Part shown: positions 4,790 through 47,688 of the stretch, piece by piece
How positions within the stretch are numbered: the stretch's first letter is position 1
How the letters are laid out: every line of letters starts with the position of its first letter
DNA from: Streptomyces sp. SPB162
GTDB taxonomy: Bacteria > Actinomycetota > Actinomycetes > Streptomycetales > Streptomycetaceae
DNA: 64,000 nt
Direction of reading: 5' to 3'
Assembly: GCF_029504575.1 (NCBI RefSeq)
Contig: NZ_JAQFII010000001.1
Span: 5,649,001 to 5,713,000 of the forward strand
Made by a program: the position numbers and the translations under genes
Notes under the pieces: model-generated
Database searches by the model: none
Seen by the model: the letters and a program-made list of their open reading frames with translations, nothing else
Told to the model about the DNA's origin: nothing

Positions 4790-4806
4790 TCGCGTCACGT
4801 CAGAAC

Positions 4807-4835: not shown

Positions 4836-4858
4836 GACGCGTACCCGGAGGAGTGGCG

Positions 4859-5725: not shown

Positions 5726-6146
5726 AGCCGGTCCGCACAGTGGCGGCGTGCTGCGCGTCGTAGCTCTCCCGGGCGGCCAGCACCTCGGGCATCCGGCCCT
5801 CGACCAGGTGGATCAGGTCGAGCAGCCGGCGGGTGGTCTCCCGGCCCAGCTCGGTGAGGCGGTAGTCGACGCGCGGCGGGTTGGTCGTCTGCGCCTCGCG
5901 GTGCACCAGTCCGTCGCGCTCCAGGGCGTGCAGCGTCTGGGAGAGCATCTTCTCGCTCACCCCGGCGATCCGGCGGCGCAGCTCGTTGAAGCGCACGGTG
6001 TCCTCGCCGAGCGCGCCGAGCGTCAGGCTCCCCCAGCGGCCGGTGACGTGCTCCAGCGTGCCGCGGGAGGGGCAGTCGCGCGCGAAGACGTTGAACGGCA
6101 GCTGCGCGTCGTCCTGGGGGCCGCACGTACCGGTACGGGTGCTCAT
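5712..6146 (-). CDS. HxlR-family winged-helix regulator
   Basis: The 144-aa protein matches the HxlR type of winged-helix transcription factor. It has an N-terminal cysteine ([16 protein letters not shown]), the [20 protein letters not shown] recognition segment, and the beta wing [12 protein letters not shown]. Family members often sense electrophiles or redox change through the N-terminal cysteine and control a neighbouring gene. Here no obvious target is adjacent: the upstream gene is a CAP-domain protein on the same strand. The stop overlaps the end of mutM. Confidence 0.9.
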
Positions 6147-6222
6147 GGTGGGAGCGTACTCCCGGGTTGCGCTGACCCAGGGATTGCGCTTTCGAAAAGT
6201 CAGCCCTCCGGCTCTCCTTCTC

Positions 6223-7095: not shown

Positions 7096-7217
7096 GTCTC
7101 GCTGTCCTCATCGTCGCGGATTAACCCGAACGGGTGAGTCCTGTTGCGCGCCGACTGTAGCGAATGACGCACGTGGCCGGAGTGAAGCGTGGGCAACTGA
7201 CGGGATAGCGTGCACAC

Positions 7218-7499
7218 ATGAACGAAAATGTCCGGCTTACGGCCTGGGTGCGCGGACGCGTCCAGGGCGTCGGCTTCCGCTGGTGGACCCGGGCCAACGC
7301 GATGCGCATCGGTGGCCTGGCGGGTTACGCCGGAAACCTCGCCGACGGCCGGGTGCAGGTGGTGGCCGAGGGGGACCGCGCGCAGTGCGAACAGTTGCTC
7401 GACTGGCTGGTGACGGGGGACACGCCCGGCCGCGTCGAGGGTGTCACGGAGATCTGGGGTCGGCCGCGCGGCGGGTACGACGGCTTCGAGATCCGCTGA
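7218..7499 (+). CDS. acyP: acylphosphatase
   Basis: The 93-aa enzyme hydrolyses acyl phosphates such as carbamoyl phosphate and 1,3-bisphosphoglycerate. The signature [11 protein letters not shown] places the catalytic arginine at R21, and GYAGNLADG places the catalytic asparagine at N40. Length and motifs are standard. It is monocistronic in appearance, divergent from the CAP gene, with 122 bases between them. Confidence 0.93.
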
Positions 7500-7842
7500 T
7501 CGTTACGCCTCGCGTACATGCCGTGTGCAATCGCCTACGGCAAGTACTCACCGGACAGTTGCCATATCCGGAGTGTCGTGCAAGGCTGCCGACATCGAGG
7601 ATGATCTCGACGCCCCACGGGCAGCCGCCGGCGCTCTTCCGCCGTGTTTTCTGAGGCTGACCCGATGGCTGGGCTGTGATCGTGTTGACCGTGTACCTAT
7701 TTGGTGAGACGCTGGAAGCCCCGCGCATCGTAGCCGTAATGCAACCTAAGCGGCGGCTTCGGCGCACCGCGCGGGTGCACATTCCCCTCACCCACGACCC
7801 TACCGCTCCCGGTCGGTCACTCAGCGTGGAGGACCATCAATC
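7500..7842. other. 343-base intergenic region without a convincing gene
   Basis: No open frame here has a ribosome binding site and family resemblance; the frames present are short and arginine-rich. The only regulatory hint is TTGACC at 7685-7690, a good -35 match, with a weak -10 (GACGCT at 7708-7713). It may serve the small gene at 7843 and smc. Confidence 0.5.
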
Positions 7843-8046
7843 ATGGCAAAGGCGCTTCTCGGTTATGTCGGCGGCCCCGACCCGCGACTCCTCGCCGAGA
7901 TGCGAAGGCTTCAGCAGCGCGTTCAGGATCTGGAATCCGAATTGGTTCGGATGCAGACGGAGAACGACGCGCTGACTGTGGCGTCGCACGAAGAGTCGCT
8001 GCTCAGCAGCATCGATGTATCGCGCGCGGAGCCCGTGCTCGCCTGA
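7843..8046 (+). CDS. small conserved coiled-coil protein upstream of smc
   Basis: A 67-aa protein begins at ATG 7843, with GGAGGACC about 8 bases upstream. Residues 16-45 (LLAEMRRLQQRVQDLESELV and on) form a leucine-heptad coiled coil. The start MAKALLGYVGGPDP is distinctive, and I recall similar small proteins upstream of smc in other streptomycetes. The function is unknown. It is followed by a strong stem-loop, so it may have its own transcript. Confidence 0.8.
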   Translation: MAKALLGYVGGPDPRLLAEMRRLQQRVQDLESELVRMQTENDALTVASHEESLLSSIDVSRAEPVLA

Positions 8047-8095
8047 TCCGGCCTGATCACCGGACGGGTGCCACGGCACCGCCAACGCATTGTGC

Positions 8096-8117
8096 AAGGG
8101 ACGCTTCGGCGTCCCTT
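8096..8117 (+). terminator. TTCG-capped stem-loop
   Basis: AAGGGACGC (8096-8104) pairs perfectly with GCGTCCCTT (8109-8117) around a stable TTCG tetraloop. This is a typical strong terminator hairpin after the small coiled-coil gene and before smc. Confidence 0.75.
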
Positions 8118-8221
8118 CGTCGTTCCGTCTTCATCCGCGGGCCCCCCGACGATCACTGTTCTCATGGTGTGCCCTGCACCTTCCCTGGTGAAACCGAACC
8201 CGGAAGGTAGAGTCCGACGGC

Positions 8222-11200
8222 GTGCACCTCAAGAGCCTCACGCTGCGTGGATTCAAATCCTTCGCCTCGGCCACGACGCTGCGCTTCGAGCCCGGCATCA
8301 CGTGTGTCGTGGGCCCCAACGGGTCCGGCAAGTCCAATGTGGTGGACGCGCTCTCCTGGGTCATGGGGGAGCAGGGGGCCAAGTCGCTGCGCGGCGGCAA
8401 GATGGAGGACGTCATCTTCGCCGGCACCACGGGGCGCCCGCCGCTGGGCCGCGCCGAGGTGTCCCTGACGATCGACAACTCCGACGGCGTGCTGCCCATC
8501 GAGTACGCCGAGGTCACCATCACGCGGATCATGTTCCGCAACGGTGGCAGCGAGTACCAGATCAACGGCGACACCTGCCGGCTGCTCGACATCCAGGAAC
8601 TGCTCTCCGACTCCGGCATCGGCCGCGAGATGCACGTCATCGTCGGCCAGGGCCAGCTCGACTCCGTCCTGCACGCCGATCCGATGGGCCGCCGCGCCTT
8701 CATCGAGGAGGCGGCCGGGGTGCTCAAGCACCGCAAGCGCAAGGAGAAGGCGCTGCGGAAGCTGGACGCGATGCAGGCCAATCTGGCGCGCGTGCAGGAC
8801 CTGACGAACGAACTGCGACGGCAGCTCAAGCCGCTGGGGCGGCAGGCGCAGGTCGCCCGGCGGGCCGCCGTCATACAGGCCGACCTGCGTGACGCCCGGC
8901 TGCGGCTGCTCGCCGACGACCTGGTCACCCTGCGCCGGGCGCTGAGTGCCGAGGTCGCCGACGAGGCGTCGCTCAAGGAGCGGCGGGACACGGTGGAACA
9001 GGACCTGGCCGCCGCGCTGCGGCGCGAGAGCGCGCTCGAGGAGCAGGTCAGGGCCCTCGCGCCGCACCTAGCCGACGCACAGGCGACCTGGTACGGCCTC
9101 TCCCAGCTCGCCGAACGCGTGCGCGGCACGATCGGACTGGCCGAGCAGCGGGTGCGGCACGCCACCGGCCAGCCCGCCGAGGAGCGGCGCGGCCGCGAGC
9201 CGGAGGACATGGAGCGGGAGGCGGCCCGGATCCGCGAGCAGGAGGCCGAGCTGACCGAGGCCCTCGACGCGGCGCGGCGGGCGCTGGAGGACACCGTCGA
9301 CCACCGCGCCGCCCTGGAGCAGCAGCTGGCGGCGGAGGAGCAGCGGCTGCGGTCCGCGGCGCGGGCGATCGCGGACCGCCGGGAGGGCCTCGCGCGGCTG
9401 CAGGGCCAGGTCAACGCGGCGCGCGGCCGGGCCGGTTCCGCGGAGGCGGAGATCGGCCGGCTCGCCACGGCCCGCGACGAGGCACGCGACCGCGCCGAGT
9501 CCGCGCAGGAGGAGTACGAGGAGCTCAAGGAGCGGGTGGACGGCCTGGAAGCGGACGACTCCGAACTGGAGGAGCGCCTGGCGGCCGCGACCCGCGAGCA
9601 GGCGGCGGCCGAGGAGGCGTTCTCGGCCGTCCGCGACGCGGCCACCGCGGCCGAGCGCGAGCGCGCCGCCCTCACCGCCCGGCGCGACGCGCTGGCACTC
9701 GGCCTGCGCCGCAAGGACGGCACCGGCGCGCTGCTCGCCGCCGGCGACCGGCTCACCGGTCTGCTCGGCCCCGCCGCGGAACTGCTCACCGTGGCACCGG
9801 GCTTCGAGATCCCGGTCGCCGCCGCCCTCGGCGCGGCGGCCGACGCCGTCGCCGTGTCGGGCCCTTCGGCCGCCGCCGACGCGCTCCGGCTGCTGCGCAA
9901 GGACGACGCAGGCCGGGCGGCGCTGGTGCTGGCGGACGGAACGGCGTCCGGCGGGTGGCCCGGCGCTTCCGGCGGCGGCACGTCCGCCCGCCACCCGGCC
10001 GACGGCCCCCGCTCGGCGACGCTGCCGCAGACCGCGGTGGCGACCGCGGTGCCGCACGCGCGCACCGCGACCGCCCCGCTGCCCGCGGGGGCGCGGCAGG
10101 CGGCCCCCCTGGTCGGCGGGCCCGGCGACCTGCTCCCCGCCGTGCACCGCATCCTGCGTGACACGGTCGTCGTGGAGAGCCTCGCCGACGCGGAGGAGCT
10201 CGTGGCGGCGCACCCGGAACTCACCGCGGTCACCGCCGACGGCGACGTGCTCGCCGCGCACTTCGCGCACGGCGGCTCCGCGGGCGTGCCCAGCCTGCTG
10301 GAGGTTCGTGCTGCCGTCGACGAGGCGGCCCGTGAGCTGGAGCGGGTGGCGGCGCTGTGCGAGTCCCTCGCGGGGGAGCAGCACGGGACGACGGAGCGGC
10401 GCGCGGCCTGCGCGCAGGCCGTGGACGCGCTGGCGCGGACGCGGCGGGCGGCGGAGAAGGAGAAGTCCGCGGTCGCCCAGCAGCTCGGGCGGCTGGCCGG
10501 TCAGGCGCGTGCCGCCGGGGGAGAGGCCGAGCGCAGCGCCGCCGCCGTGGGACGGGCCGAGGAGTCGCTGGCCGCGGCGATGGAGGAGTTCGAGGAGTTG
10601 TCGGTGCGGCTGGGGGAGGCCGTGGAGGCACCCGGTGAGGAGGAGCCCGACACCTCCGTGCGGGACCGGCTGTCCGCCGACGGGGCCAACGCGCGGCAGA
10701 CCGAGATGGAGGCGCGGCTCCAGCTGCGCACCCACGAGGAGCGGGTGAAGGGGCTGGCCGGGCGGGCGGACGCCTTGGACCGAGCGGCCCGCATCGAGCG
10801 TGAGACCCGGGCGCGTGCCGAGCAGCGCCGGGCCCGGCTGGAGTACGAGGCCCGGGTGGCGGGCGCGGTGCTGGCCGGTGCGCGCGCCCTGCTGGAGTAC
10901 GTGGCGGTGTCGCTCGCGCGCGCGGAGGCCGAACGGGGGGCGGCCGAGCGGGCCCGTGCGGAGCGTGAGGCGCAGCTGGGGGAGGAGCGCCGGCAGGGCC
11001 GGGAGCTCAAGGCCGAGCTGGACAAACTGACCGACTTCGTCCACAAGGGCGAGGTGCTGGGCGCCGAGAAGCGGCTGCGCATCGAGCAGTTGGAGACCCG
11101 GTCGCTGGAGGAGCACGGCATCGAGCCGTCCGGGCTGGTCGACGAGTACGGCCCGCACCACCTCGTGCCGCCGTCGCCCGCCGCGGAGGGCGAGGAGTTG

Positions 11201-33717: not shown

Positions 33718-34428
33718 ATGGACACGGACGCAGGACCTTCGGAGCGCGATCGCTCTTCCACTGCTGAACAGCAGGGGGAGCAGCGGTCGCGCTTCGCTGT
33801 GTACCCGTCGTCCGTCCCCCCGTGGTGGTCAGTGGCCCGCTGGTGGCGTACGGCGCTGCCGGCCGTGGCCTGCGTGGCCGCCCTGTTCCTGGTGAACGCC
33901 TTCCTGGTGCAGCCGTTCCTCGTTCCGAGCGCATCGATGGAGGGGACGCTGCAGATCGGGGACCGGGTGCTGGTGAACAAGCTGGCCTACCGTTTCGGCC
34001 GGGTGCCGGAGCGGGGCGACATCGTCGTCTTTGACGGTGACGGATCGTTCCTCCAGACCGGCGGGACCGATTATGTAAAGCGGGTGATCGGTATTGGCGG
34101 GGACCGGGTCACTTGTTGCGACGCGCTGGGCAGACTCATGGTGAACGGTCATTCGCTGGACGAGGGATATCTGTATCCGGGCGATACACCGTCCCGAGTA
34201 CCGTTCGACATCCAAGTGCCGGCAGGGAGGCTGTGGGTGATGGGTGACCACCGTGACGACTCCCGGGATTCGCGGGATCACCTCGGCGAGCCCGGCGGCG
34301 GCACCGTCCCGCTGGACGAGGTGATCGGGCGGGCCGACTGGATCGGCTGGCCGATCGGGCGGATGCGGTCCCTGGACCGTCCGGCGGTCTTCGCCGCCGT
34401 GCCAGGACCGGGTCGGGGCCGTGGGTAA
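33718..34428 (+). CDS. sipW: type I signal peptidase SipW
   Basis: The first of four signal peptidases in the cluster, 236 aa. It cleaves signal peptides at the outer membrane face. One N-terminal membrane segment (about 46-66) precedes the catalytic Ser box VPSASMEGTL (S73) and the Lys box DYVKRVIGIGGD (K121). The GDHRDDSRDSRDH box is present. No C-terminal membrane anchor is evident. It overlaps sipX by 8 bases. The cluster order matches that described in S. lividans. Confidence 0.92.
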   Translation: MDTDAGPSERDRSSTAEQQGEQRSRFAVYPSSVPPWWSVARWWRTALPAVACVAALFLVNAFLVQPFLVPSASMEGTLQIGDRVLVNKLAYRFGRVPERGDIVVFDGDGSFLQTGGTDYVKRVIGIGGDRVTCCDALGRLMVNGHSLDEGYLYPGDTPSRVPFDIQVPAGRLWVMGDHRDDSRDSRDHLGEPGGGTVPLDEVIGRADWIGWPIGRMRSLDRPAVFAAVPGPGRGRG

Positions 34429-35683
34429 CCGCGGCAGGCCGCGGTACGGGCACCACCGGCCGGGGCGGGGTTCCGGCGGAGGGCGTGGCTCCGGCAGCGG
34501 CTCGCGCGATGGTCTCCAGGGCGGCTCCGGCAGCTCCCACGGTCCCTCCGATGCCGGCTCGGCGCCGCGCGGCGGCCCCACCCGGGCGGAGCGGCGCAAG
34601 CTGGCCCGCAAGGTCAAGCGCAAGCGGCGCCGATCGGCGGCGCGCGAGGTGCCGCTGCTGCTCGTCGTGGCACTGCTGATCGCCCTGGTGCTCAAGACGT
34701 TCCTGCTGCAGGCGTTCGTCATCCCGTCCGGTTCGATGGAGCAGACGATCAGGATCAGCGACCGGGTGCTGGTCGACAAGTTGACTCCGTGGTTCGGCAG
34801 CACGCCGCAGCGCGGCGACGTCGTGGTCTTCAAGGACCCGGGCGGCTGGCTGGCGAACGAGCCCAAGGCCAAGCCGGATCCGGTGGTGGTCAAGCAGGTG
34901 AAGGAGTTCTTCACCTTCATCGGGCTGCTGCCGTCCTCGGGCGAACAGGACCTGATCAAGCGGGTGGTCGCGGTCGGCGGGGACACCGTCAAGTGCTGCG
35001 GCAAGGACGGCCGGATCACCGTCAACGGCACTCCGTTGACCGAGCCGTACATCAATCCGGGGGACACGCCCTCGATCTCGCAGTTCAGCGTGAAGGTGCC
35101 GGTCGGGCGGGTGTGGGTGATGGGGGACCACCGCTCCAACTCGGCGGACTCCCGTTTCCACATGGACCAGCCTGGTCAGGGGACGGTGCCGCTGGATCTC
35201 GTGGTGGGCCGGGCGTTCGTCATCGCGTGGCCGCTGGCCCACTGGCGCAAACTGGAGGAACCGGGGACGTACGCCTCGGTGCCCGACGCGCGGCCGACGG
35301 GCGCGAGTGCGCTGGAACCGCCGACTAAGGTGGGCACGGCCAACAATGGGCAAGGAACGACCCACCCCCCGATTCCTGCGGAACTCCCGCTCGTTATGGG
35401 AGTGGTGGGCCTGCGTCAGTCTTGGCGCAGGCGGCAGCGTGGAATGAGGAGTGAACGTGGGGGACCTGGCGGTCGGCGCACGATCCGGATCCGGCGAGCC
35501 CGAAGACGGGGACATCCCGGCGGGCTCTGTCCAGAAGACGGCGGGCGGCGGCGCGGCCCCCGATGCGGGGCACGAGAACGAGTCCGGACACGAACCACCC
35601 GCACCGCGGTCCGGGTCGGGGTCCGGTGGTGGCGAGGACGGGAACGGGAACGGAGACGGCGGTGCGGCGGGCAGGCGCGGTAG
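34421..35683 (+). CDS. sipX: type I signal peptidase SipX
   Basis: This 420-aa peptidase has a Gly/Arg-rich N-terminal tail and a membrane segment near 77-97. The catalytic Ser is S105 (IPSGSMEQTI), the Lys is K180 (DLIKRVVAVGGD), and GDHRSNSADSRFH follows. The last 75 or so residues are Arg-rich and overlap the sipY coding region by over 220 bases. Removing one G from GGG near 35407-35409 would end the gene at 35447, right before sipY. The true C-terminus is therefore uncertain, while the catalytic domain is intact. Confidence 0.85.
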   Translation: MGNRGRPRYGHHRPGRGSGGGRGSGSGSRDGLQGGSGSSHGPSDAGSAPRGGPTRAERRKLARKVKRKRRRSAAREVPLLLVVALLIALVLKTFLLQAFVIPSGSMEQTIRISDRVLVDKLTPWFGSTPQRGDVVVFKDPGGWLANEPKAKPDPVVVKQVKEFFTFIGLLPSSGEQDLIKRVVAVGGDTVKCCGKDGRITVNGTPLTEPYINPGDTPSISQFSVKVPVGRVWVMGDHRSNSADSRFHMDQPGQGTVPLDLVVGRAFVIAWPLAHWRKLEEPGTYASVPDARPTGASALEPPTKVGTANNGQGTTHPPIPAELPLVMGVVGLRQSWRRRQRGMRSERGGPGGRRTIRIRRARRRGHPGGLCPEDGGRRRGPRCGARERVRTRTTRTAVRVGVRWWRGRERERRRRCGGQAR

Positions 35684-36488
35684 GCGCGGCAGGCCGGAGC
35701 GCAAGCAGCGGTCGTTCTGGAAGGAGCTGCCGCTGCTCATCGGCATCGCGCTGGTACTGGCGCTGCTGATCAAGACCTTCCTGGTGCAGGCGTTCTCCAT
35801 CCCGTCGGACTCGATGCAGAACACCCTGCAGGAGGGCGACCGGGTTCTGGTGGACAAGCTGACCCCGTGGTTCGGCTCCGAGCCCGACCGCGGCGAGGTC
35901 GTCGTCTTCCACGACCCGGGCGGCTGGCTGCCCGAGAACCCGCCGCCCAGCGGCAACGCGGTGTCGCGGGGTCTGCAGTCGGCCCTCAGCTTCATCGGCC
36001 TGATGCCCTCCGCGCAGGAGAAGGACCTGATCAAGCGGGTCATCGGCGTGGGTGGCGACACCGTGGAGTGCAACGGGACGGGTCCGCTGAAGGTGAACGG
36101 CAAGGCGCTCGTCGAGCCGTACGTCTACCCGGACAACACCCCGTGCACGATGGACAAGCCGTTCAAGGTGACGGTGCCCAAGGACCACATCTGGGTGATG
36201 GGCGACCACCGGCAGAACTCGCTGGACTCGCGGTACCACATGGATCAGCCGGGCAACGGCTACGTCCCGCTCGACGACGTGGTCGGCCGTGCCTTCGTGA
36301 AGGCCTGGCCCATCAACCGCTGGGGCATGCTGCCCGTCCCCGACACCTTCGACCAGCCGGGGATCAACGCGGCGGGCGCCGCCCTGCCGGCCACCGCCGG
36401 TCTGGTGGGTGCGGTTCCGCTGGTGCTGATGCGCCGGCGTCGGCTGACCCGCAAGGGCGCCGAGGCCGCTGAGGGCTCCGCGGGCTGA
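35457..36488 (+). CDS. sipY: type I signal peptidase SipY
   Basis: A 343-aa signal peptidase starting at GTG 35457, six bases after a TGAGGAG site; GTG 35451 is an alternative. The acidic Gly/Asn-rich N-terminus is followed by a membrane segment (about 95-110), the Ser box IPSDSMQNTL (S119), the Lys box DLIKRVIGVGGD (K193) and GDHRQNSLDSRYH. A second hydrophobic segment (AALPATAGLVGAVPLVLM) ends in Arg/Lys, giving a C-terminal anchor. Confidence 0.9.
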   Translation: MGDLAVGARSGSGEPEDGDIPAGSVQKTAGGGAAPDAGHENESGHEPPAPRSGSGSGGGEDGNGNGDGGAAGRRGRRGRPERKQRSFWKELPLLIGIALVLALLIKTFLVQAFSIPSDSMQNTLQEGDRVLVDKLTPWFGSEPDRGEVVVFHDPGGWLPENPPPSGNAVSRGLQSALSFIGLMPSAQEKDLIKRVIGVGGDTVECNGTGPLKVNGKALVEPYVYPDNTPCTMDKPFKVTVPKDHIWVMGDHRQNSLDSRYHMDQPGNGYVPLDDVVGRAFVKAWPINRWGMLPVPDTFDQPGINAAGAALPATAGLVGAVPLVLMRRRRLTRKGAEAAEGSAG

Positions 36489-36577
36489 CCGTGGGGCGGC
36501 CTGCCCGGCGGTGTGGTCGTCGGCCATGCGCGGGACGTGTGGGACTCGTGCGAGTCGCAAATGCCTGCCGGGGAGTG

Positions 36578-36607
36578 CTGACCGCGGCAGGTACCGGCGG
36601 GTAGGGT
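36578..36607 (+). promoter_or_regulatory. sipZ promoter, probably leaderless
   Basis: CTGACC (36578-36583) and a perfect TAGGGT (36602-36607) are 18 bases apart. The -10 box ends eight bases before the sipZ ATG, so the transcript likely starts at the AUG. This agrees with reports that sipZ heads a separate operon. Confidence 0.55.
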
Positions 36608-36615
36608 GCGGGTCC

Positions 36616-37350
36616 ATGAGCAGCAGCACTTCCACGAGCAGCAGCGCGATACGCAAGGATGACGGCCGGCTCGGACGCGTACTGTCCGGGCTCGCCGTCG
36701 CCATCGGCTGCGCGCTGTTCCTGGGCGGCTTCGCCTGGGGAGCCGTGACCTACCGGCCCTACACCGTCCCGACCCAGTCCATGCAGCCGACCGTGGAGCC
36801 GGGAGACCGGATCCTGGCGCAGCGTGTGGACGGCTCGGACGTGCGGCGCGGCGACATCGTGGTCTTCCATGACCAGCTGTGGGGCAGCGCGACGCTCGTC
36901 AAGCGCGTCGTCGGGGTGGACGGCGACGTCATCAGCTGCTGCGACAAGCAGGGCCGGATGCTCGTCAACGGCAAACCGGTCGAGGAGAGCTACCTGCTGA
37001 ACGGCGGACCGGCGTCGATGACGCCCTTCGAGACCACGGTTCCCAAGGGGCAGCTCTTCCTCCTCGGTGACAACCGGCTCGAGTCGCTCGACTCCCGTGT
37101 GCACATGACCGGCGGCGACACCGGTACGGTGCCGCGCGGGGCGGTCAAGGCCCGGGTGGACGCGGTGGCGTGGCCGCTGGGGCGGCTCGGCATGGTGGAC
37201 CGGGCCGAGAACTTCTCCGCGCTGCCCGGCGGCGTCTCCCAGCCGGGGCCGCTGCGCTGGATCACCATCGCGGTGTTCGCCGGAATGGCGCTGATCCTCG
37301 GCGGTGCGGCGCACGGCCCGATCGCCCGCGGGCTGCGCCGCCGCCGGTGA
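36616..37350 (+). CDS. sipZ: type I signal peptidase SipZ
   Basis: The 244-aa peptidase starts at ATG 36616, just downstream of a strong promoter. An N-terminal membrane helix (about 25-45) is followed by the Ser box VPTQSMQPTV (S55), the Lys box LVKRVVGVDGD (K96) and GDNRLESLDSRVH. A C-terminal helix (ITIAVFAGMALILGGAA) plus an Arg-rich end forms a second anchor. The stop overlaps the GTG of the Nudix gene as GTGA. Confidence 0.92.
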   Translation: MSSSTSTSSSAIRKDDGRLGRVLSGLAVAIGCALFLGGFAWGAVTYRPYTVPTQSMQPTVEPGDRILAQRVDGSDVRRGDIVVFHDQLWGSATLVKRVVGVDGDVISCCDKQGRMLVNGKPVEESYLLNGGPASMTPFETTVPKGQLFLLGDNRLESLDSRVHMTGGDTGTVPRGAVKARVDAVAWPLGRLGMVDRAENFSALPGGVSQPGPLRWITIAVFAGMALILGGAAHGPIARGLRRRR

Positions 37351-38311: not shown

Positions 38312-38671
38312 GTGAACGCACGAGCAGCCCGGGGCAGGTATGGCGAGGAGCTGGCGGTCCGCTGGCTCACCACGGCGGGCCTGAGGGTTCTGGAACGGAA
38401 CTGGCGGTGCCGCCGCGGCGAGGTGGACATCGTCGCGTCGGAGGGCGACGCGCTGGTGATGTGCGAGGTGAAGACCCGCACCGGGGGTGACTACGAGCAC
38501 CCCATGGCGGCCGTCACCCCGCGCAAGGCGGAACGGCTGCGGCTGCTCGCGGAGTACTGGCTCAGCGAGCACGGCGACCCGCCCTCGGGCGGGGTGCGGA
38601 TCGACCTCGTGGGCGTGGTTCTGCCCGGCCGCGGAGCGGCCCGGGTCGAGCATGTGCGGGGGGTGGCCTGA
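38312..38671 (+). CDS. yraN: UPF0102/YraN family protein
   Basis: A 119-aa protein with an endonuclease-like fold: [20 protein letters not shown], then [20 protein letters not shown] and [20 protein letters not shown] (ExK core). Cellular role unproven. GTG 38312 is preferred because GGAGG lies 8 bases upstream; the earlier GTG 38294 is inside a hairpin. The stop overlaps the comM ATG as TGATG. Confidence 0.9.
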
Positions 38672-39780
38672 TGGGCTTCGCCCGTACCTGCTCGGTGGCC
38701 CTGGTCGGTGTGGAGGGCGTGGTCGTCGAGGTTCAGGCCGACCTCGAGCCGGGGCTCGCCGCGTTCACCCTCGTCGGACTGCCCGACAAGAGCCTGAGCG
38801 AGAGCCGCGACCGCGTCCGGGCGGCGATCGTGAACAGCGGCGAGACATGGCCGCAGAAGAAACTCACGGTGGGCCTCAGTCCCGCCTCGGTCCCCAAGAG
38901 CGGCAGCGGCTTCGACCTCGGAGTCGCGTGCGCGGTCCTGGCCGCCAACGAACGGATCGCGCCCCTGACCATCGCCGACCTGGTGATGATCGGCGAGCTG
39001 GGTCTCGACGGCCGGGTGCGGCCGGTCCGCGGTGTGCTGCCCGCCGTCCTCGCCGCCGCCGACGCCGGATACCGGCAGGTGGTCGTTCCCGAACGCACCG
39101 CGGCCGAGGCCTCGCTCGTCCCGGGAGTCTCGGTGCTCGGCATCCGCACCCTGCGCCAGCTCATCGCGATCCTCAACGACGAGGCGGTCCCGGAGGAGAC
39201 GGCGGACCGGGACGAGGGGCGCCCCGACCCCCTCCTTGCCGGGCTCGCGGTGCCCGGCGCCGGCATCGGCACCGGAGTCTCCGACCGGCAGGTGCTCCCC
39301 GACCTGTCCGACGTCGCGGGCCAGCACACCGCCCGGCGCGCCCTGGAGATCTCCGCGGCCGGCGGCCATCACCTGTACCTGAAGGGCCCGCCGGGTGCGG
39401 GCAAAACCATGCTGGCCGAGCGGCTGGCTGGCCTTCTGCCGCGGCTCACCGCCCAGGAGTCGCTGGAGGTGACGGCGGTGCACTCGGTGGCCGGGATCCT
39501 CCCTCCGGGCAAACCGCTGGTCGACACCCCGCCGTACTGCGCCCCGCACCACTCGGCGACCATGCCCTCCATCATCGGCGGCGGCAGCGGTCTGCCCCGG
39601 CCGGGCGCGGTCTCCCTGGCTCACCGCGGGGTGCTCTTCCTGGACGAGGCGCCGGAGTTCAGCGGCCGGGTGCTCGACGCGATGCGCCAGCCGCTGGAGT
39701 CGGGGCATGTCGTGGTGGCCCGTTCCGCGGGAGTGATGCGGCTGCCCGCGCGCTTCCTGCTCGTCCTCGGTTGTGCATAG
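38671..39780 (+). pseudogene. comM: ComM/YifB AAA+ ATPase, N-terminal fragment (interrupted by element)
   Basis: The first 366 codons encode the Lon-protease-like N-terminal domain and most of the Mg-chelatase-like ATPase. Walker A is GPPGAGKTMLAERL and Walker B is GVLFLDEAPEF. The native frame runs to 39768, ending LLVL; the element then adds GCA and a stop at 39778. The missing part is at 47173-47688. ComM is a helicase that promotes recombination of incoming DNA in transformable bacteria. The split falls just before the conserved ANPCPCG motif and likely inactivates the protein. Confidence 0.92.
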
Positions 39781-39796
39781 GCGGTCACTGACCGGT
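39769..39796 (+). other. left end of the island with subterminal palindrome
   Basis: GGTTGTG (39769-39775) is the terminal inverted repeat. CGGTCACTGACCG (39782-39794) is a perfect 13-base palindrome, probably a recombinase arm or core-binding site. It lies between the end of comM and the first recombinase ATG. Confidence 0.6.
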
Positions 39797-39809
39797 GTAG
39801 CTTCCGCCG

Positions 39810-41318
39810 ATGCGGATCGAATCGACGTGGACAGTGCACTTCGCCAGCCGGGACTTACCCGAGCTTGAGGACGTGCCTCCCTACCTGTACGAAGCCCGGG
39901 AGGGGTGCGTTTCGTGGCTGGATGAGGCAGGGGTTCCCGACGGGCTGCCGTACCTGCTCTCACCGCGTTTCGAGTACGACGTGGTGCTCAACTCGTACTT
40001 CTTTCAGGCGAATCTGCTGACCGCCCCGTGGAACAGCAACGCGAACCGAGCGCGAGCGCTGGCCCGCTTCTGCGGCTTTTTGCACGTCGCGCGCGGAGGG
40101 AAGTCGTGGCGGCAGGCCACGGAGGCTGATCACATCGCATTCCACCAGTGGCGGCGGCGCGACGAGGCCGGGCCACGGGTCGAGGGCGATACCTGGAACC
40201 AGGAAGTCGCCCTCGTTAACCAGTTCTTCGAGTGGGCGGTCCGCAAGGGACATGTGACGGAAAACCCTATTCCACAGCGTCTGGCCAAGCCCGGTCCGCC
40301 GGGCACGGTGCTGGGCCCTCGCGCGTCGGCGACGGTGCCTGCCACCTATGCGCACGACGAGAACGGCGAGCGCATTGAGTGGATGCCGCCGCGGACCTAC
40401 CGGCTCTGGCGGGACGTCGGACTCCGTGGCTATGGTCCGGACGGACTGCCGTCCGGTCACTTCCGGGGCCGGTGGGCCTCTCGCAACACGGCCTTCTCCG
40501 ACCTGATGGTGCGCACGGGAGAGCGCCTGACCGAACAGTCATGCCTCTCCGTCTTCGAGGTTCCCTCCCGCACCGATGTGACTGGCTACCAGCGCTTTTG
40601 GCTGCCGGGAGCCATCGCGAAGAACTTCTCTGCGCGCTGGGTTTACGTCCCGCACAGCATGGTGCTGGACATCGCCGACTACGTGCAGTGGGACCGGGCG
40701 GACGCCGTGGAGCGGGCCCAGGCGGCGGGCCGCTACCAGCGCATCCGCCGTCCCTTGGTGATCAGCGACCCGGACCGGCCGGAGGTCGTCCACGCGCTGT
40801 CTGCCAGCGGGATCACACGGATGCGGCTGAGCGACCTGACCCCGGCCGAGCGCTACCGGCTGCTGCGGGAGACGGACAAAGGACTGGAGCCGGCGATGCT
40901 CTGGCTGACCGAGGACGGCATGCCGATGTCGGTCTCGGGCTGGAAGGCCATGTTCACCACGGCCAACGAACGCTGCCGCGCGGCCGGTCTTGACCTCGCG
41001 GCCCACGCCCACCTATTGCGTCACACGTTCGCGGTCGTCACCCTCGAACAACTTCAGCGCGCCCACATCGCCCAGCTCGGCGCGATGAATCAGTACCAGC
41101 GCGGCCACTACGTGAGGATCTTCGGGGACCCGTTGGACTGGGTCCGCCGCAGACTCGGACACCGGTCGATCCTCACCACTTTGATCTATCTGCACGCCTT
41201 GCAGGAGTTGGAGATGGAGACTCGCATGGCGTTGGTCCCCGACGTCTGGGAGGACCCGCGCGACACCCCGCTGGCCCAGCTCGGGGACGACGCCCTCGCC
41301 CCGGGAGTCGAGGAATGA
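39810..41318 (+). CDS. tyrosine recombinase 1 of the trio
   Basis: A 502-aa site-specific integrase with an N-terminal SAM-like DNA-binding domain (about 70-150; RARALARFCGFLHVARGGKS) and a C-terminal catalytic domain. Active-site residues visible are R239 (TGERLTEQ), H401-x-x-R404 (HLLRHTFAVV), H451 (RRRLGHRSILTT) and the nucleophile Y460 (LIYLHAL). All are present, so it looks active. Its stop overlaps the next ATG as ATGA (41315-41318), implying coupled translation. Tn554 TnpA is the likely counterpart. Confidence 0.88.
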   Translation: MRIESTWTVHFASRDLPELEDVPPYLYEAREGCVSWLDEAGVPDGLPYLLSPRFEYDVVLNSYFFQANLLTAPWNSNANRARALARFCGFLHVARGGKSWRQATEADHIAFHQWRRRDEAGPRVEGDTWNQEVALVNQFFEWAVRKGHVTENPIPQRLAKPGPPGTVLGPRASATVPATYAHDENGERIEWMPPRTYRLWRDVGLRGYGPDGLPSGHFRGRWASRNTAFSDLMVRTGERLTEQSCLSVFEVPSRTDVTGYQRFWLPGAIAKNFSARWVYVPHSMVLDIADYVQWDRADAVERAQAAGRYQRIRRPLVISDPDRPEVVHALSASGITRMRLSDLTPAERYRLLRETDKGLEPAMLWLTEDGMPMSVSGWKAMFTTANERCRAAGLDLAAHAHLLRHTFAVVTLEQLQRAHIAQLGAMNQYQRGHYVRIFGDPLDWVRRRLGHRSILTTLIYLHALQELEMETRMALVPDVWEDPRDTPLAQLGDDALAPGVEE

Positions 41319-43228
41319 GGCGCGCGGGACGCGGAAGTACGGGACCTGGCCGGCGGGCCGCCCTGCCCCAGGGGGACTACGCCGTCCCGGCCACCCCGGC
41401 GGGGAATCCGGACCTGGTTGTCGACTTCCACGGCGACGACGGCCGGAAGGGCCGGTTCGACTGCGGCACCCGGCCGTTGCCCGACTGGCGCCCCGCGCTG
41501 GCCGCGGCCTTCGCCCAGCGGACCGGTCCCGACGGCGGTCGACGCACGCTGTCTTCGGCCACCAGCGCCTGGCAGAGCCTGGGCCGACTGATGCGCTTCC
41601 TGGCGAAGCTACCCGTCCCGCCGGCGAGGCCGCAGGACCTGACCAGCAAGCACCTGGAAGCCTTCCTTGACGCTCGCGCCGAGTCTGCACCGACGACCGT
41701 CACGACCGACCTCCGCGAGATCCACTCGCTGTTCGTCCTTCCCGGGATCGCCCCTCTGATCAGCCCGGACGCCACGGACTGCCTGAAGCGACGCCTGCCG
41801 GACACGAGGATCAAGAAGAAGGCCCGCCAAGCGACGTCCGAGAAGCGGCCAAAGACCGACACGGTGGGCTACTCCGACGGTGAACTGGCCCGGCTCATGG
41901 CCGCTCTGCGAGCGGACTGCGCACGCATCCGCAATCGCATCGCCGCTGGTGAGGAGCTGTTGCGGCGCTTTCAGGAGGAACCGCAGACGCTCAGCGAAGA
42001 GCAACGGGCAGAGGGCCAGCAGCTGGCGCACATGGCTGCCACCGGCGAGGTCCCCTCGTTCCCCGGGCCGGTCCATGAAGCGCTGCCCGAACGCCTGGCC
42101 TGGGCGGGTCGGCTGTTTCTGACGCTGGATGACTTGGTGCCTCTCCTGCTGCTGATGGCTGCCCTGGCCGAGCGCAACGGCGAGACCGTCAAGGAGCTTC
42201 CGGCCCGGCACCGCGTCTTGGAGGGGAAGGCGGTGGAGGTCCGGGTGGTCAAGCGGCGCCGTGGTCCGAAGCGGTGGTTCGAGACGGTCACCTGGGAGAT
42301 CGGTCCGGCGAATCGGCAGCTGCACACCGCCGGGGGCTTCTACCTGCTGCTGCTTCAACTCGCTGCCCGCAGCAGGCAGTTCTGCGAGTCGGATCTCGCG
42401 GTCTGCGTCTGGCGCCACGGCACGAGAGCCGGAGTTCAGGGCCGGGAGGAACATTGCGCCCCGTTCGCGCGGTCGCTGCAAGGAGTAACCCTGCTGATGC
42501 CGCGCTGGGCCGCTGACAGACCACGTCCGCTGCTGGCCGACCCCGGGCCCGGCGGCGAACGGGTTCCGCTCCAGGTGACCTTCAACCGGCTCAAGACCAG
42601 CATGGAAGTGCGGCGGACCAAGCGGATGGGCGGCCATCTGCCGTCAGCAGCGAAGAGCAACACCATGGCGGTCCTGTTCCGCCACTACCTCAGCGGTGAT
42701 CCCGTGATCACCGAATGGGCTGAGGAAGTCCTCGGCGAGGCACTGGTCGATGCCGAACAGGCCGCTCTGCACGCCCACCAGCAGGCCCTCAAGATCGCCG
42801 GGAACACGTTGAAAGTCGTCTCGGGTCCGGTCAGCCCGGAGAGCCTGACGGCTGCGGGTCTGGATCCGGAGACCGCCGAACAAGCAGCGGCCGGCCAGCT
42901 GGACACCGGTTGGACGGCCTGCACGGACCATGATCACCACCCGGTCACTGAGGCCCCTTGCCAGGTCACCTTCCTGGACTGCTTCCACTGCGGCAACTGC
43001 TTGATCACCCGCGACCACCTGCCTCACCTGCTCGGTCTGCTGGACGCCCTCGTGGCTCGCCGCAGGCATCTGTCAGTCGACGACTGGTGGAAACGCTACG
43101 GGCCCGCCTGGGCGGCGATCCGCCGCGACATCCTCGCCAAATTCACCCCGGCCGAGGTGAAGAAGGCGGCGGCAGCCAAGGCCACCGACGACCTGCTGGA
43201 CCTGACCGAGAACCCGTGGGAGCTGTGA
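41315..43228 (+). CDS. tyrosine recombinase-like protein 2 of the trio
   Basis: A 637-aa recombinase relative. An N-terminal SAM-like region (about 80-160; SAWQSLGRLMRFLAKLPVPP) precedes a catalytic-like domain with R287 (ALAERNGETVKEL) and a late SNTMAVLFRHYLSGD segment (R456-H457-Y458). The C-terminal third has a possible metal site (CQVTFLDCFHCGNC) and conserved DHLPHLLGLL. The compact RHY box differs from standard recombinases, so catalytic competence is uncertain. It overlaps recombinase 1 by 4 bases and recombinase 3 by 1 base. Confidence 0.8.
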   Translation: MRRAGRGSTGPGRRAALPQGDYAVPATPAGNPDLVVDFHGDDGRKGRFDCGTRPLPDWRPALAAAFAQRTGPDGGRRTLSSATSAWQSLGRLMRFLAKLPVPPARPQDLTSKHLEAFLDARAESAPTTVTTDLREIHSLFVLPGIAPLISPDATDCLKRRLPDTRIKKKARQATSEKRPKTDTVGYSDGELARLMAALRADCARIRNRIAAGEELLRRFQEEPQTLSEEQRAEGQQLAHMAATGEVPSFPGPVHEALPERLAWAGRLFLTLDDLVPLLLLMAALAERNGETVKELPARHRVLEGKAVEVRVVKRRRGPKRWFETVTWEIGPANRQLHTAGGFYLLLLQLAARSRQFCESDLAVCVWRHGTRAGVQGREEHCAPFARSLQGVTLLMPRWAADRPRPLLADPGPGGERVPLQVTFNRLKTSMEVRRTKRMGGHLPSAAKSNTMAVLFRHYLSGDPVITEWAEEVLGEALVDAEQAALHAHQQALKIAGNTLKVVSGPVSPESLTAAGLDPETAEQAAAGQLDTGWTACTDHDHHPVTEAPCQVTFLDCFHCGNCLITRDHLPHLLGLLDALVARRRHLSVDDWWKRYGPAWAAIRRDILAKFTPAEVKKAAAAKATDDLLDLTENPWEL

Positions 43229-45321
43229 TGTCCTTGCTGACCTTCGCCGGCGCCGAGCCGGACCGGACCTCGTTGGACGCCAACCCGTTCGTCCTGCACG
43301 CACGGCAGTTGCGTCCCGAATTCCGGCTTGAGGACACCGCACGCTTCGACGCCGACGTCTGGCCGCTGACGCCGGTGCTGCTGAAGAACCAGAGCCGGCA
43401 GATGAGCCTGAGATTCGTACGCATCCCTGCCCGCTTCCGGGTCGTGATCAAGGAAATCTGCTACGGCATGTTGTCCGGCCCGCTGCCGCCGGGCGAAGAC
43501 TGGCCGGCGCCCGAGAGCGTCTACGCGTGGTTCGGGGAGATCATCCGTTTCCTGGACTGGATGGAGGCCCGTCCCACGGTCCTTCGCGACCTGACCGGAG
43601 ACGACCTGCTGGACTACCAGCGGTTTCTGACCACCGTCCTGAAGAAGGAGGGCGGCCGGACGCGGGCGCGGGCAGCGGTCCGCCAGTTCTGGCGGTGGCG
43701 GACCGTGCTCACGGCCGACCGTCTCCGCTTTGACCCGCGGCACGTCGACGGCTGGGGCGAGTCCAAGTCCCGGTCGAGGGCGGGGGAGAACTCCACCTCC
43801 CGGATTCCCGAACAGGTCCTCGGTCCGCTGTTCGCCTGGGCCCTGCGGTTCATCGACGAGTTCTCGCCGGACATCCTGACCGCCGTCGATGCCTGGCGCC
43901 AACGCCGCGGGGATAGGTCAGGCCCAGGCTTCCACCAGAGCAGAAACCTGCGGCAGGCCCTTGGCGCACTGCTGGACGAACACGTTGCCGCCGGCCGAGC
44001 GCTGCCCGGACTGGACGGCAAACTGAACAAGCTGCACCTCGCACGGACCCTTGGATGTTCACGGGCCTCACTGGACCACCACCGTGACTTGATCGACGAG
44101 GCAGTCGCGGCCGTCGGCATCTCCGCGACCACGTTCTTCGCGATCCCCATCACCCTGGATGCGGACGGCAGGCCATGGGTCGAGGGCATCGCCACCCACC
44201 ACACCCACCGCAACAGCCTTGCCGCACTGGCACGGCACCTGCATATCGCCTGCTACATCGTCATCGCCTACCTCTCCGGCATGCGCGACAGCGAGATCAA
44301 GCACCTCCGCCGAGGCTGCCTCACCATCGAGCGCGACGAAGATCAGATCCCTTACCGCTGGAAGATCAACAGCCTCGCCTTCAAAGGCGAGGACGACGCC
44401 GCAGGAGTCCCGGCGACCTGGAGCGTCGGCGAACCCGTTGCCCGAGCCGTCACCGCTCTGGAACGGCTGCACCGCCCGGACGTCCACGTCCTGATGTCCT
44501 GCACGGACTTCAGTCCCGGCAGCCTTGACCGCAAGGCCACCGAGCGAGCCCTGACCAACTCCTCCACCAACACCCAGCTCAACGAATTCGTGGCCTGGGT
44601 GAACGACTACTGCTCGCAGCACGAGCGAGCCGACGCCGTCCCTCAGGTCAACCGGCGAACCTTCCGACTCGTGACCTCGCAGTTCAGGCGAACGCTGGCC
44701 TGGTTCATCGCCCGCCGCCCAGGCGGCACGATCGCCGGCGCCCTTGCCTACCGCCACCACAGCGTTCAAGTCTTCGAAGGCTATGCAGGAACCAGCGAGG
44801 CCGGATTCCGGGCGGAGGTCGAAAGCGAACAAGCCCTCGCCCGAGGCGAGCACCTCATGGCCATGATCGACGCTCACGAGCACACCGCGCTGAGCGGACC
44901 GGCCGCAGAAGAGGCCGCCGAGCGGCTGGAAGCGTTCGGCCACCGGGCTCGCTTCCAGGGGCAGGTCGCCCTCGACGAGCGCCGACTCCAGCGGATCATG
45001 GAGCGGCACGAGCCCGCGATCTATCCCGGGAAGTACGTCACCTGCGTCCACGACCACACCAAGGCCCTCTGCGAAAAGGCTCGCCGAGGCCGGTCAGAAG
45101 GCCTTCCTGACCACGGCGCATGCCGCCCACTCTCCTGCCGCAACGTCGCCCTCACGCCCGCGAACATCGCCGCCTGGCAGAAGGAGATCCACCGCATCGA
45201 ACGCCGCCTCAAGACCCGGCGCATCATGCCGCCCCTCCTGCGACACCGGCTCATCGAACGACGGGACGAGATCGTCGCCTTCCTCGCCCGCAACACCCCG
45301 CACCTGGAGGCGACCGCATGA
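43228..45321 (+). CDS. tyrosine recombinase 3 of the trio
   Basis: A 697-aa recombinase starting at ATG 43228 (MSLLTFAGAEPDRTSLDANP), with GTG 43225 as an alternative. It has an N-terminal DNA-binding domain (about 90-160) and a catalytic domain with R353 (SGMRDSEIKHLR), Q485-x-R487 (SQFRRTLAWF; Gln at the usual His), H510/H511 (YRHHSVQVF) and Y519 (GYAG). The C-terminus has several cysteines (CVHDHTKALC, CRPLSC) resembling Tn554 TnpB-type tails. Its stop overlaps the DUF6262 ATG as ATGA. Confidence 0.85.
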   Translation: MSLLTFAGAEPDRTSLDANPFVLHARQLRPEFRLEDTARFDADVWPLTPVLLKNQSRQMSLRFVRIPARFRVVIKEICYGMLSGPLPPGEDWPAPESVYAWFGEIIRFLDWMEARPTVLRDLTGDDLLDYQRFLTTVLKKEGGRTRARAAVRQFWRWRTVLTADRLRFDPRHVDGWGESKSRSRAGENSTSRIPEQVLGPLFAWALRFIDEFSPDILTAVDAWRQRRGDRSGPGFHQSRNLRQALGALLDEHVAAGRALPGLDGKLNKLHLARTLGCSRASLDHHRDLIDEAVAAVGISATTFFAIPITLDADGRPWVEGIATHHTHRNSLAALARHLHIACYIVIAYLSGMRDSEIKHLRRGCLTIERDEDQIPYRWKINSLAFKGEDDAAGVPATWSVGEPVARAVTALERLHRPDVHVLMSCTDFSPGSLDRKATERALTNSSTNTQLNEFVAWVNDYCSQHERADAVPQVNRRTFRLVTSQFRRTLAWFIARRPGGTIAGALAYRHHSVQVFEGYAGTSEAGFRAEVESEQALARGEHLMAMIDAHEHTALSGPAAEEAAERLEAFGHRARFQGQVALDERRLQRIMERHEPAIYPGKYVTCVHDHTKALCEKARRGRSEGLPDHGACRPLSCRNVALTPANIAAWQKEIHRIERRLKTRRIMPPLLRHRLIERRDEIVAFLARNTPHLEATA

Positions 45322-45728
45322 CCCGCCAACTCGCAGTCCCCTCAGAACTCAGGGTCCGCGCCGTCCTCGAAGAGCTCCGACGACAGGCAGCCGACGAAGG
45401 CAAGGCCCCCAGCGTCCTCGCCCTGGCCAGGAAGCTCGGCTTGAGCAACACGACGTTCCGCCGCCACTTCCCCCACATCGCTCGCGAGGTCACCGAGAGC
45501 CGATCCTCGTCAGGCGGCTCCTCCGGCGAGGAGCGTCAAAGCCGGCTCGACATGGTCGTCGCGAGAAACGCCAAGCTCAAGATCGCCAATCGAACCCTCA
45601 AAGGACATCTGAAGCTTGCTGCGGCCCAGATCCAACGCCTCGCTTCTGAGAACGCACAGCTACGGCAAGCACTGGAAGCGTCCGCCAAGGTCACCCACAT
45701 CGGCCCAGCTCGGCAACCACGACCCTGA
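45318..45728 (+). CDS. DUF6262/TnpC-like accessory protein
   Basis: The 136-aa protein has an HTH-like N-terminal half (SVLALARKLGLSNTTFRRHF) and a C-terminal coiled coil (NRTLKGHLKLAAAQIQRLAS). This plan matches DUF6262 proteins, which accompany recombinase trios, and the small TnpC of Tn554 that influences transposition orientation and efficiency. It is translationally coupled to recombinase 3 by a 4-base overlap. No catalytic motif is seen. Confidence 0.82.
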   Translation: MTRQLAVPSELRVRAVLEELRRQAADEGKAPSVLALARKLGLSNTTFRRHFPHIAREVTESRSSSGGSSGEERQSRLDMVVARNAKLKIANRTLKGHLKLAAAQIQRLASENAQLRQALEASAKVTHIGPARQPRP

Positions 45729-45790
45729 AAGGTCAACGTTTGAAACTATGAGCACCAAATGATCTCGCAGCACACCGATCGGAGAGGCGC

Positions 45791-47116
45791 ATGGGGGACA
45801 CCTGGGGCCTGATGCTGGGCGACAGACAGATCAGGATGGGGAAGAACGAGACGCCTGCCAAGCTGATGACGGTCTTCCGTGAGGAAGACAAGTACCTGCA
45901 CCTCGAATGGGCTCAGCGCGTCGACGAGGTCAACGCGCGTGATGAGACAGCGTGGGGCGAGCTCGACGATTTCGAGGGCTTCGACCATCGCGAGCTCTTC
46001 GGTTACCGGACCACAGTCCAGACGATCATGGCCCGTCTCAAGCTGATGGGCTTCGATCCCGATCGATGCAGCCAAGAGATGATCAAGGATCTCGAAGGCG
46101 TCAACGAGGATGACATCGAGGACGGTCTCCTTGTGCTCAGGGGTCGTCCCACACGCGAGCGCAAGGAGGAGATCTGTCATCGGGTCTCTGCCGCCGAGGT
46201 CCTGGACACGGGGATCGCGGCCTATCACAAGCGAGCGGAGGCCTTCGGGAACTGGAAAGTGGGGGACGGTCTCATAAAGCTGGCCGAGCTGGATGAAATT
46301 TGCGTTTCGCAGCTGGACTTCTTCTTTGATGACCTTGCAGTCGATCCGAGGCTTTTCCTTGCTCTGATCCTTCGCTCTCAGGATCCTAAAGAGGTACTAC
46401 AGCTCGACCTGAGCCAGCTCCTCATGGCTGGCTACTTTGAGAGCAGCGAGGCGGTCTCGACCGAGGCCCTCCAGCAGCTGCGAGATGAGACGGCGAGCAG
46501 TGGACCCATCATCGTCATCACCGAGGGGAAGTACGACTCCCGTGTCCTGGGCCGGGCGCTACCTATCGTCAGGCCCGACATCGCTGGCTACTTCGCCTTC
46601 TGGGACCTTGAGGAGACCAAGGCAGCCGGCGGGACGGACCGGGTGGTCGCCAACCTCAGGAGCTTCGCAGCCGCAGGTGTGATGAACCGTGTCATCGCCC
46701 TCGTCGATAACGATGCGGCTGGACTGGCTGCACTGAAGACCTTGGCCAACCCGGCACTTCCCAAGAACTACATCGCTCGCAATCTGCCCGATCTGGACTA
46801 CGCGCGCGCTTATCCAACCCACGGGCCTTCGGGCCCAGGCCAGGACGACGTCAACGGCCGAGCATGCTCCGTCGAGTTCTACTTCGGCCTGGAGTGCCTC
46901 ATCGGCCCTGACGGAAATCCCGTCCCCATCCAGTGGACATCGCTGAACAAATCGGTGAACACATGGCAGGGAGAGCTGCAGAACAAGCGCTACGTCGAAG
47001 AGAGGATCGATGCCCTGCTTGACGCTGCGGAAGCTGGACAGGTGCCACTGGACGAGCGCTGGGATCCCCTTCGGGAGATCGCGCAGATCCTCATCGATGC
47101 TGCCCAGAGCCGGTAG
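45791..47116 (+). CDS. HEPN/Toprim N-terminal-domain protein, putative defence nuclease
   Basis: The 441-aa cargo protein starts MGDTWGLMLGDRQIRMGKNE and continues LMTVFREEDKYL, matching the HEPN/Toprim-associated N-terminal domain. The C-terminal half is Toprim-like: E245 in VITEGKYDSRVL and D306-x-D308 in ALVDNDAAGLAAL. Toprim nucleases occur in OLD-type and other anti-phage systems, so a defence or abortive-infection role is a fair inference, not shown. GGAGAGGCGC precedes ATG 45791. The gene is less GC-biased than its neighbours, which suggests transfer. Confidence 0.8.
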   Translation: MGDTWGLMLGDRQIRMGKNETPAKLMTVFREEDKYLHLEWAQRVDEVNARDETAWGELDDFEGFDHRELFGYRTTVQTIMARLKLMGFDPDRCSQEMIKDLEGVNEDDIEDGLLVLRGRPTRERKEEICHRVSAAEVLDTGIAAYHKRAEAFGNWKVGDGLIKLAELDEICVSQLDFFFDDLAVDPRLFLALILRSQDPKEVLQLDLSQLLMAGYFESSEAVSTEALQQLRDETASSGPIIVITEGKYDSRVLGRALPIVRPDIAGYFAFWDLEETKAAGGTDRVVANLRSFAAAGVMNRVIALVDNDAAGLAALKTLANPALPKNYIARNLPDLDYARAYPTHGPSGPGQDDVNGRACSVEFYFGLECLIGPDGNPVPIQWTSLNKSVNTWQGELQNKRYVEERIDALLDAAEAGQVPLDERWDPLREIAQILIDAAQSR

Positions 47117-47135
47117 TCGCATCCGGCACTGTCAG

Positions 47136-47170
47136 CGGTCAACGGTCAGCTCCAAACCATAGCCACAACC
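47136..47170 (+). other. right end of the island with direct CGGTCA repeats
   Basis: Two direct CGGTCA copies (47136-47141, 47143-47148) lie inside the right terminal repeat CACAACC (47164-47170). The same hexamer forms the left palindrome, so these are likely recombinase-binding sites arranged differently at the two ends. Confidence 0.55.
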
Positions 47171-47172
47171 TC

Positions 47173-47688
47173 GCGGCGAACCCCTGTCCGTGCGGTCGGC
47201 ATTCGCTGCTGGGGCTGGGGTGCGACTGCTCGCCGGCCGCGGTCCGCCGGTACCAGGCGAGGCTGTCCGGGCCGCTCCTGGATCGGGTGGATCTCCGGGT
47301 CCAGGTCGAGGCGGTGACCCGTACCGAACTGATCGAGGGAGCCGCGGGCTCCGAGCCGACGGCGCGGGTCGCGGACCGGGTGCGGCTGGCGAGGGAACGG
47401 GCGACGGCGCGGTACGCGGAGACTCCGTGGCGGACCAACAGCGAGGTGCCCGGCCATGAGCTGCGCACGCGCTGGCAGGTGGGCCCGGCCGGGTTGCGGG
47501 AGGCCGAGAGGGACATGGAGCGCGGCCTGCTCACCGCCCGGGGGCTGGACCGCGTCCTGAGGGTGGCCTGGACGATCGCGGACCTCGCGGGCGCCGAGCG
47601 GCCCGGCCCGCCGGAGATGGCCGAGGCCCTGCAACTGCGGACCGGCATCTCCCGCGGTGTGCCGGCCGTCGCGGGAGGTGGTGGCTGA
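47173..47688 (+). pseudogene. comM: ComM/YifB C-terminal fragment
   Basis: This frame continues comM exactly where the N-terminal fragment stops: AANPCPCGRHSLLGLGCDCS, then RRYQARLSGPLLDRVDLRVQ and the C-terminal Mg-chelatase-related domain to the stop at 47688. It has no start codon of its own with a good ribosome binding site. The stop overlaps the dprA ATG (TGATG), so dprA was coupled to comM before the insertion. Confidence 0.92.

Follow-up and report, generated by a model that had tools for sequence, protein, structure and literature searches.

A site-specific mobile element of about 7.4 kb interrupts comM (yifB) on the chromosome of Streptomyces sp. SPB162, within the 64-kb stretch of DNA that was analysed here (the window). 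Four overlapping recombination genes fill positions 39810 to 45728 of the comM element. The element and its target site comprised the following features:

38671..39769, + strand: 5' part of comM/yifB, encoding a Mg-chelatase-like AAA ATPase (flanks join into one open frame)
39765..39770, + strand: left 6-bp core/spacer CCTCGG, bordering the left terminal motif TTGTGCA on its outer side (compared with the right CCTCGC and with the related element L007)
39771..47168, + strand: mobile element (empty site rebuilt exactly; orthologous element at the same comM position in L007)
39810..41318, + strand: tyrosine recombinase 1, 502 aa, intA/ginA/tnpA-like (Pfam Phage_integrase, 3.8e-6; SAM-like, 7.1e-6)
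41315..43228, + strand: second recombination protein, 637 aa, without a recognisable domain (alignment with three relatives)
43225..45321, + strand: large tyrosine recombinase, 698 aa (weak SAM-like match; alignment with three relatives)
45318..45728, + strand: fourth recombination protein, small (136 aa), DUF6262-like and TnpC/GinD/Srap-like (PF19776 DUF6262, E 7.5e-5)
47169..47174, + strand: right 6-bp core/spacer CCTCGC, attR (compared with the left spacer and with L007)
47175..47688, + strand: 3' part of comM (PF13335 Mg_chelatase_C, E 1.7e-26)

The termini of the element are imperfect inverted repeats, TTGTGCA... on the left and ...GCCACAA on the right. When the flanks at 38671-39769 and 47174-47688 were joined at the common CCTCG, an exact comM frame was obtained, which reads ...FLLVLAANPCPCG.... 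The comM stretch was contiguous in all 18 of the other same-genus genomes searched, and the SPB162 genome matched in two pieces. Comparison thus shows a past insertion of the carrier element into comM. Close upstream of comM, at 33718-37350 of the window, four tandem signal peptidase I-like genes were recognised by eye from their translations.

Among the recombination proteins, tyrosine recombinase 1 has the full catalytic set R239, H401, R404, H451, and Y460, which is kept in its relatives, and the large recombinase retains R354...R488...H511...Y520. Pfam and NCBIfam scans of the second protein gave no significant match, and its alignment with the three relatives showed that the catalytic arginine positions are unconserved. 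Domain matches in the 136-aa protein indicated a helix-turn-helix (HTH) followed by a coiled coil. Matches to recombinase 1 were found in 14 of 61 genomes, SPB162's included, and most of these were much diverged.

Judged from its genes and junctions, the carrier is best explained as a site-specific four-gene tyrosine-recombinase element of the Tn554/GInt/SE type. It has in common with GInts (PMC5385486), SEs (PMC10214605), and Tn554 the presence of several tyrosine recombinases and a small HTH/coiled-coil protein, as well as site-specific insertion, a retained split target, a short junction spacer, and cargo right after the fourth gene; it differs from them in its actinobacterial host and its comM target. 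SEs have been reported in Gammaproteobacteria only (PMC10214605). Compared by layout, the intA-tfp-intB-srap order and the 6-bp spacer of SEs fit the comM element. In GInts, the third recombinase lacks catalytic residues, whereas in the comM element, again compared by layout, it is the second protein that looks degenerate, which is the SE order.

Related elements at comM and elsewhere

In Streptomyces sp. AC555_RSS877 (L007), comM is occupied at the same site by an element that contains all four recombination genes and the same cargo gene, with identities to the window of 59% for TnpA, 50% for TnpB, 54% for TnpC, 48% for the DUF6262 protein, and 50% for the cargo. Its spacer is GCTGGC at both ends, its cargo gene directly follows the fourth gene, as in the window, and further cargo is present on both sides. 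The 5' part of recombinase 1 is duplicated in L007 (907-1413 and 3991-4500), with a stretch of about 2.5 kb that includes a DUF2382/PRC-barrel gene between the copies, and this duplication suggests a nested or tandem insertion at comM. A 283-aa gene, absent from the window, lies directly 3' of the Toprim gene in L007 (11477-12328) and in another homologue locus, L006 (11448-12296), with 88% identity between the two copies. It had no Pfam or PADLOC match and was weakly similar (E ~1e-4) to a gene at 7618-8445 of L068, a Xanthomonas citri plasmid, which is the second gene downstream from the Toprim homologue there; the 283-aa protein may be an optional partner or else a second effector.

Two related elements, L034 and L039, appear to be without the Toprim cargo and have other neighbours. 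In L034 (G045:C1), a Ku gene (4247-5140) comes directly after the DUF6262-like gene of the recombinase operon, and in L039 (G037:C368), a 1515-aa nSTAND1-WD40 protein is encoded downstream of the operon (5983-10530), with a Tn3 transposase fragment between. The nSTAND1-WD40 protein may be another cargo, also of a defence type, in this element family. In addition, a comM fragment of 32-38 residues (around residues 53-84) adjoins a distant recombinase operon in L017 (G004:C11, about 2980-3090), and that genome also has an intact comM elsewhere (C233).

Domains and active site of the cargo protein

The cargo gene and the two domains of its product were delimited as follows:

45791..47116, + strand: cargo gene, HEPN/Toprim-NTD1 plus Toprim protein, 441 aa (open reading frame, homologues, PF18871, model)
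45791..46498, + strand: HEPN/Toprim-NTD1 domain, residues 1-236, putative sensor (PF18871 via homologues; profile-profile match)
46499..47113, + strand: Toprim nuclease domain, residues 237-441 (AlphaFold2 model; VIA-align to Retron Eco2, Z 9.4; conservation)

The gene starts with an ATG after GGAGAGG, and the N-terminal MGDxW..LGE is common to the homologues. A previous sequence-only reading had described this gene as the only cargo of a mobile element, with lower GC than its surroundings, and both points held: everything in 39810-45728 is a recombination gene, the cargo gene is the sole gene between 45728 and the right end of the element at 47168, and its GC content of 0.610 is the lowest in the window (mean, 0.703; SD, 0.032). 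The 1326-bp windows of equally low GC, 8 of 1254, all overlapped the cargo gene. Pairwise dN/dS was about 0.18-0.4, with about 0.18 for L006-L007 and with synonymous sites saturated in distant pairs, implying that the gene is maintained by purifying selection.

The same reading had matched the N-terminus to the HEPN/Toprim-associated domain, and this proved right by way of the homologues, the window sequence alone being insignificant (PF18871 E 0.016, 15.6 bits, below the cut-off of 25). The full-length homologues in L006 (49% identical; 25.7 bits) and L008 (46%; 32.9 bits) were over the curated PF18871 cut-off, and 22 of the 24 homologues matched at E <= 0.1, the best at 2.9e-57. A profile-profile alignment (hhalign) of the actinobacterial with the proteobacterial branch gave a probability of 95% and an E value of 2.6e-8. 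With the window protein alone, Pfam, NCBIfam, and PADLOC scans were insignificant or empty; a direct PF18871 search of three genomes missed the window gene itself and so cannot show absence. When the N-terminal domain was folded alone (pLDDT 81.5), the structure search returned nothing above Z 3.8, a result that does not show a new fold. A reading of the domain as a HEPN RNase was rejected, since no conserved R-x(4-6)-H motif was present in the N-terminal part of the 24 homologues.

The AlphaFold2 model of the cargo protein (pLDDT 82.6, pTM 0.79) has a C-terminal Toprim fold. Its best structural match was the Retron-Eco2 Toprim RNase (Z 9.3-9.4, rmsd 3.3-3.4, 164-166 residues, 18% identity), and Foldseek also ranked this structure first (E 4.6e-3, prob 0.96). 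The comparison with OLD/AriB-type nucleases that had been proposed from the sequence therefore placed Retron-Eco2 nearest, followed by weaker matches to OLD (Z 6.9), T7 primase (6.8), PARIS AriB (6.7), GajA (6.4), and RNase M5 (5.7); a common arrangement may account for Z values below 8, from which the Eco2 match stands out. Searches of PDB sequences, in which the family profile and three of its members served as queries, gave no meaningful match, and a BFVD fold search gave nothing convincing.

Five acidic residues, E245, D249, D306, D308, and E362, were invariant in all 24 homologues, in keeping with the earlier statement that the C-terminus keeps E245 and D306/D308. K399 was kept in 23 of the 23 homologues that reach that far, and position 360 was S in 16 homologues and A in 6, the window protein having S360-x-E362. 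In Eco2, the ligands of metal A are E374/D460/D462, those of metal B are D378/S513/E515, and K562 is catalytic; defence is lost when these residues are mutated, and the Toprim domain has RNase activity in isolation (PMC12405507). E245, D249 (at the same +4 spacing), D306/D308, S360-x-E362, and K399 of the window protein fit E374, D378, D460/D462, S513-x-E515, and K562 of Eco2, respectively. By this alignment of motifs, the window protein apparently has the whole Eco2-type two-metal nuclease site, in which K399 can be read as the counterpart of K562 by pattern rather than by residue-level superposition.

The HEPN/Toprim-NTD1 plus TOPRIM architecture was described in 2013 and was predicted to have a role in biological conflicts and defence (Anantharaman et al. 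2013, PMC3710099). The window protein has the same two-domain order as that PF18871 family, with a ~240-aa alpha+beta N-terminal domain and a Toprim C-terminus, but it represents a diverged actinobacterial branch, falls below the cut-off alone, and is carried by a recombinase element within comM. The Retron-Eco2 (Ec67) RT-Toprim effector (PMC12405507) is the closest solved Toprim fold and shares the metal-site pattern E, D(+4), DxD, SxE, K; unlike it, the window protein is without a reverse transcriptase (RT) or msDNA, and its N-terminal half is an unrelated domain. No RT domain was found in the cargo protein, and the RT-Toprim PADLOC model had no match in the SPB162 genome. PARIS AriB shares the Toprim two-metal nuclease fold but requires the AriA ABC ATPase as sensor, and there is no ATPase gene within the comM element. 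OLD and Gabija GajA share a Toprim nuclease domain with an E/DxD site but carry a fused ABC ATPase; the cargo protein has none, its 441 aa giving no match to an ATPase domain and its N-terminal 236 residues being of the PF18871 type. Identities as OLD (no ATPase), a retron (no RT), and PARIS (no AriA) were each rejected for the cargo protein. It joins a known, apparently uncharacterised family, on a carrier that is unusual. PADLOC 2.0.0 has no model for this family, and no functional test of any HEPN/Toprim-NTD1 plus Toprim member was found in the open-licence literature.

Distribution and neighbourhoods of homologues

Homologues were present on 48 of 72,556 plasmids, and an alignment search recovered 8 IMG/VR viral contigs with a homologue; a viral-contig search with the single window protein gave no match. 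Portal, terminase, or tape-measure genes lay near the homologue in the five viral contigs checked, and the Aeromonas homologue belongs to a Mu-like prophage, in which it is encoded on the opposite strand. Within the class, a homologue was found in 6 of 394 genomes and not in the other 388, and besides SPB162, 3 of 24 same-genus genomes had one (not found in 21), implying that the gene is accessory. Homologues were also located at apparent Streptomyces chromosome ends. The homologues at G021:C1:15634-16290 and G021:C1:6857097-6857753 (L003 and L005) and at G399:C1:4023-4688 are very near contig ends that resemble the ends of linear chromosomes, and the matching copies at both ends of G021 are probably terminal repeats.

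Several neighbourhoods contained defence genes. One same-genus genome has the homologue beside Avs2 (PADLOC 2.2e-241), and the neighbours on plasmids included the following: AbiE; a three-component ABC system with SIR2; an AAA ATPase and UvrD helicase pair with AbiJ-NTD4; AbiEii with a cytosine methyltransferase; and Fic. A toxin-antitoxin (TA) or defence gene was present in about 6 of 17 distinct annotated plasmid contexts. For eight plasmids, such a gene was found around the homologue in 6 of 8, against 1 of 8 matched segments, a comparison that carries no statistic because six of the plasmids had been picked as positive. Some homologues had no recognisable defence neighbour in the contexts examined. 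Housekeeping contexts with no mobile or defence link had been named as an outcome that would speak against a defence role; the homologues were instead on plasmids, in prophages, and in other mobile or defence contexts. A structure lacking the Toprim fold had been named as another such outcome, and the predicted structure has that fold. No conserved partner gene was found across the contexts examined, and the cargo protein therefore probably acts alone.

Proposed function and alternative readings

The Toprim fold and the mobile and defence contexts support the sequence-only reading of the gene as a candidate anti-phage effector, defence itself being inferred. On the evidence of sequence comparison and the structural model, the cargo is probably a mobile single-protein phage-defence effector, with its nuclease activity, substrate, and trigger as predictions. 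In the proposed mechanism, it would be a single-polypeptide sensor-effector with HEPN/Toprim-NTD1 fused to a Toprim nuclease. The N-terminal domain would keep the nuclease silent and would respond to a phage-derived cue, freeing the nuclease, which would cut cellular nucleic acid. Cleavage would then halt translation or growth, the infection would be aborted, and the comM element would benefit by the protection of its host. Sensing is a role that we infer for the N-terminal domain, which had no detected structural relative. Since Retron-Eco2, the nearest fold, and AriB both cut RNA, RNA (perhaps tRNA) is slightly favoured as the substrate; the fold alone is unable to decide between RNA and DNA, and a DNA target is also plausible.

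A defence nuclease that instead cuts DNA in the manner of OLD and GajA, restricting phage or plasmid DNA, seems less likely. The OLD C-terminal region and GajA are also matched by the model, the Toprim domains of both act on DNA (PMC12405507, PMC12409363), and some homologues are near DNA-targeting systems; the top fold match is nevertheless an RNase, and the window has no fused or adjacent ABC ATPase of the OLD/GajA kind. We consider it unlikely that the gene has a selfish role in maintenance or exclusion, acting in addiction, anti-plasmid function, or superinfection exclusion and mainly serving the element over broad phage defence. It is kept by the orthologous element at the same comM site (L007), occurs as a lone gene on plasmids and in prophages, and would resemble the addiction and restriction-modification cargo that GInts often bear (PMC5385486), but no antitoxin gene adjoins it in the window, and the lack of a conserved partner across contexts also argues against this role.

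That the gene is a fifth core recombination gene and not cargo is very improbable: its position after the fourth gene is the same in both comM elements found, but most homologues are without such recombinases, characterised GInts and SEs require four genes only (PMC5385486, PMC10214605), and the reading was rejected on the plasmid contexts and on L034 and L039, which appear to be without the gene. Least probable of all is a housekeeping RNA- or DNA-processing enzyme like RNase M5 or primase, with which the Toprim fold is shared, given the sparse distribution of the gene in its genus and class and its occurrence on plasmids and prophages.

Beyond the defence effector at this locus, a wider reading is offered tentatively, as a possibility rather than an expectation: the homologues may form a stand-alone defence family that is widespread and whose single protein unites a new sensor domain with an Eco2-type Toprim RNase, in place of the RT/msDNA control of the retron. 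Plasmids and prophages would spread this family, as would, among actinomycetes, a comM-targeting SE-like element. If the protein works as proposed, an architecture catalogued in 2013 would become a testable single-gene defence system that PADLOC 2.0.0 misses. Eco2-type Toprim nucleases would then be governed by quite different sensors, and a comM-targeting recombinase element would be documented as one that carries defence genes among actinomycetes.
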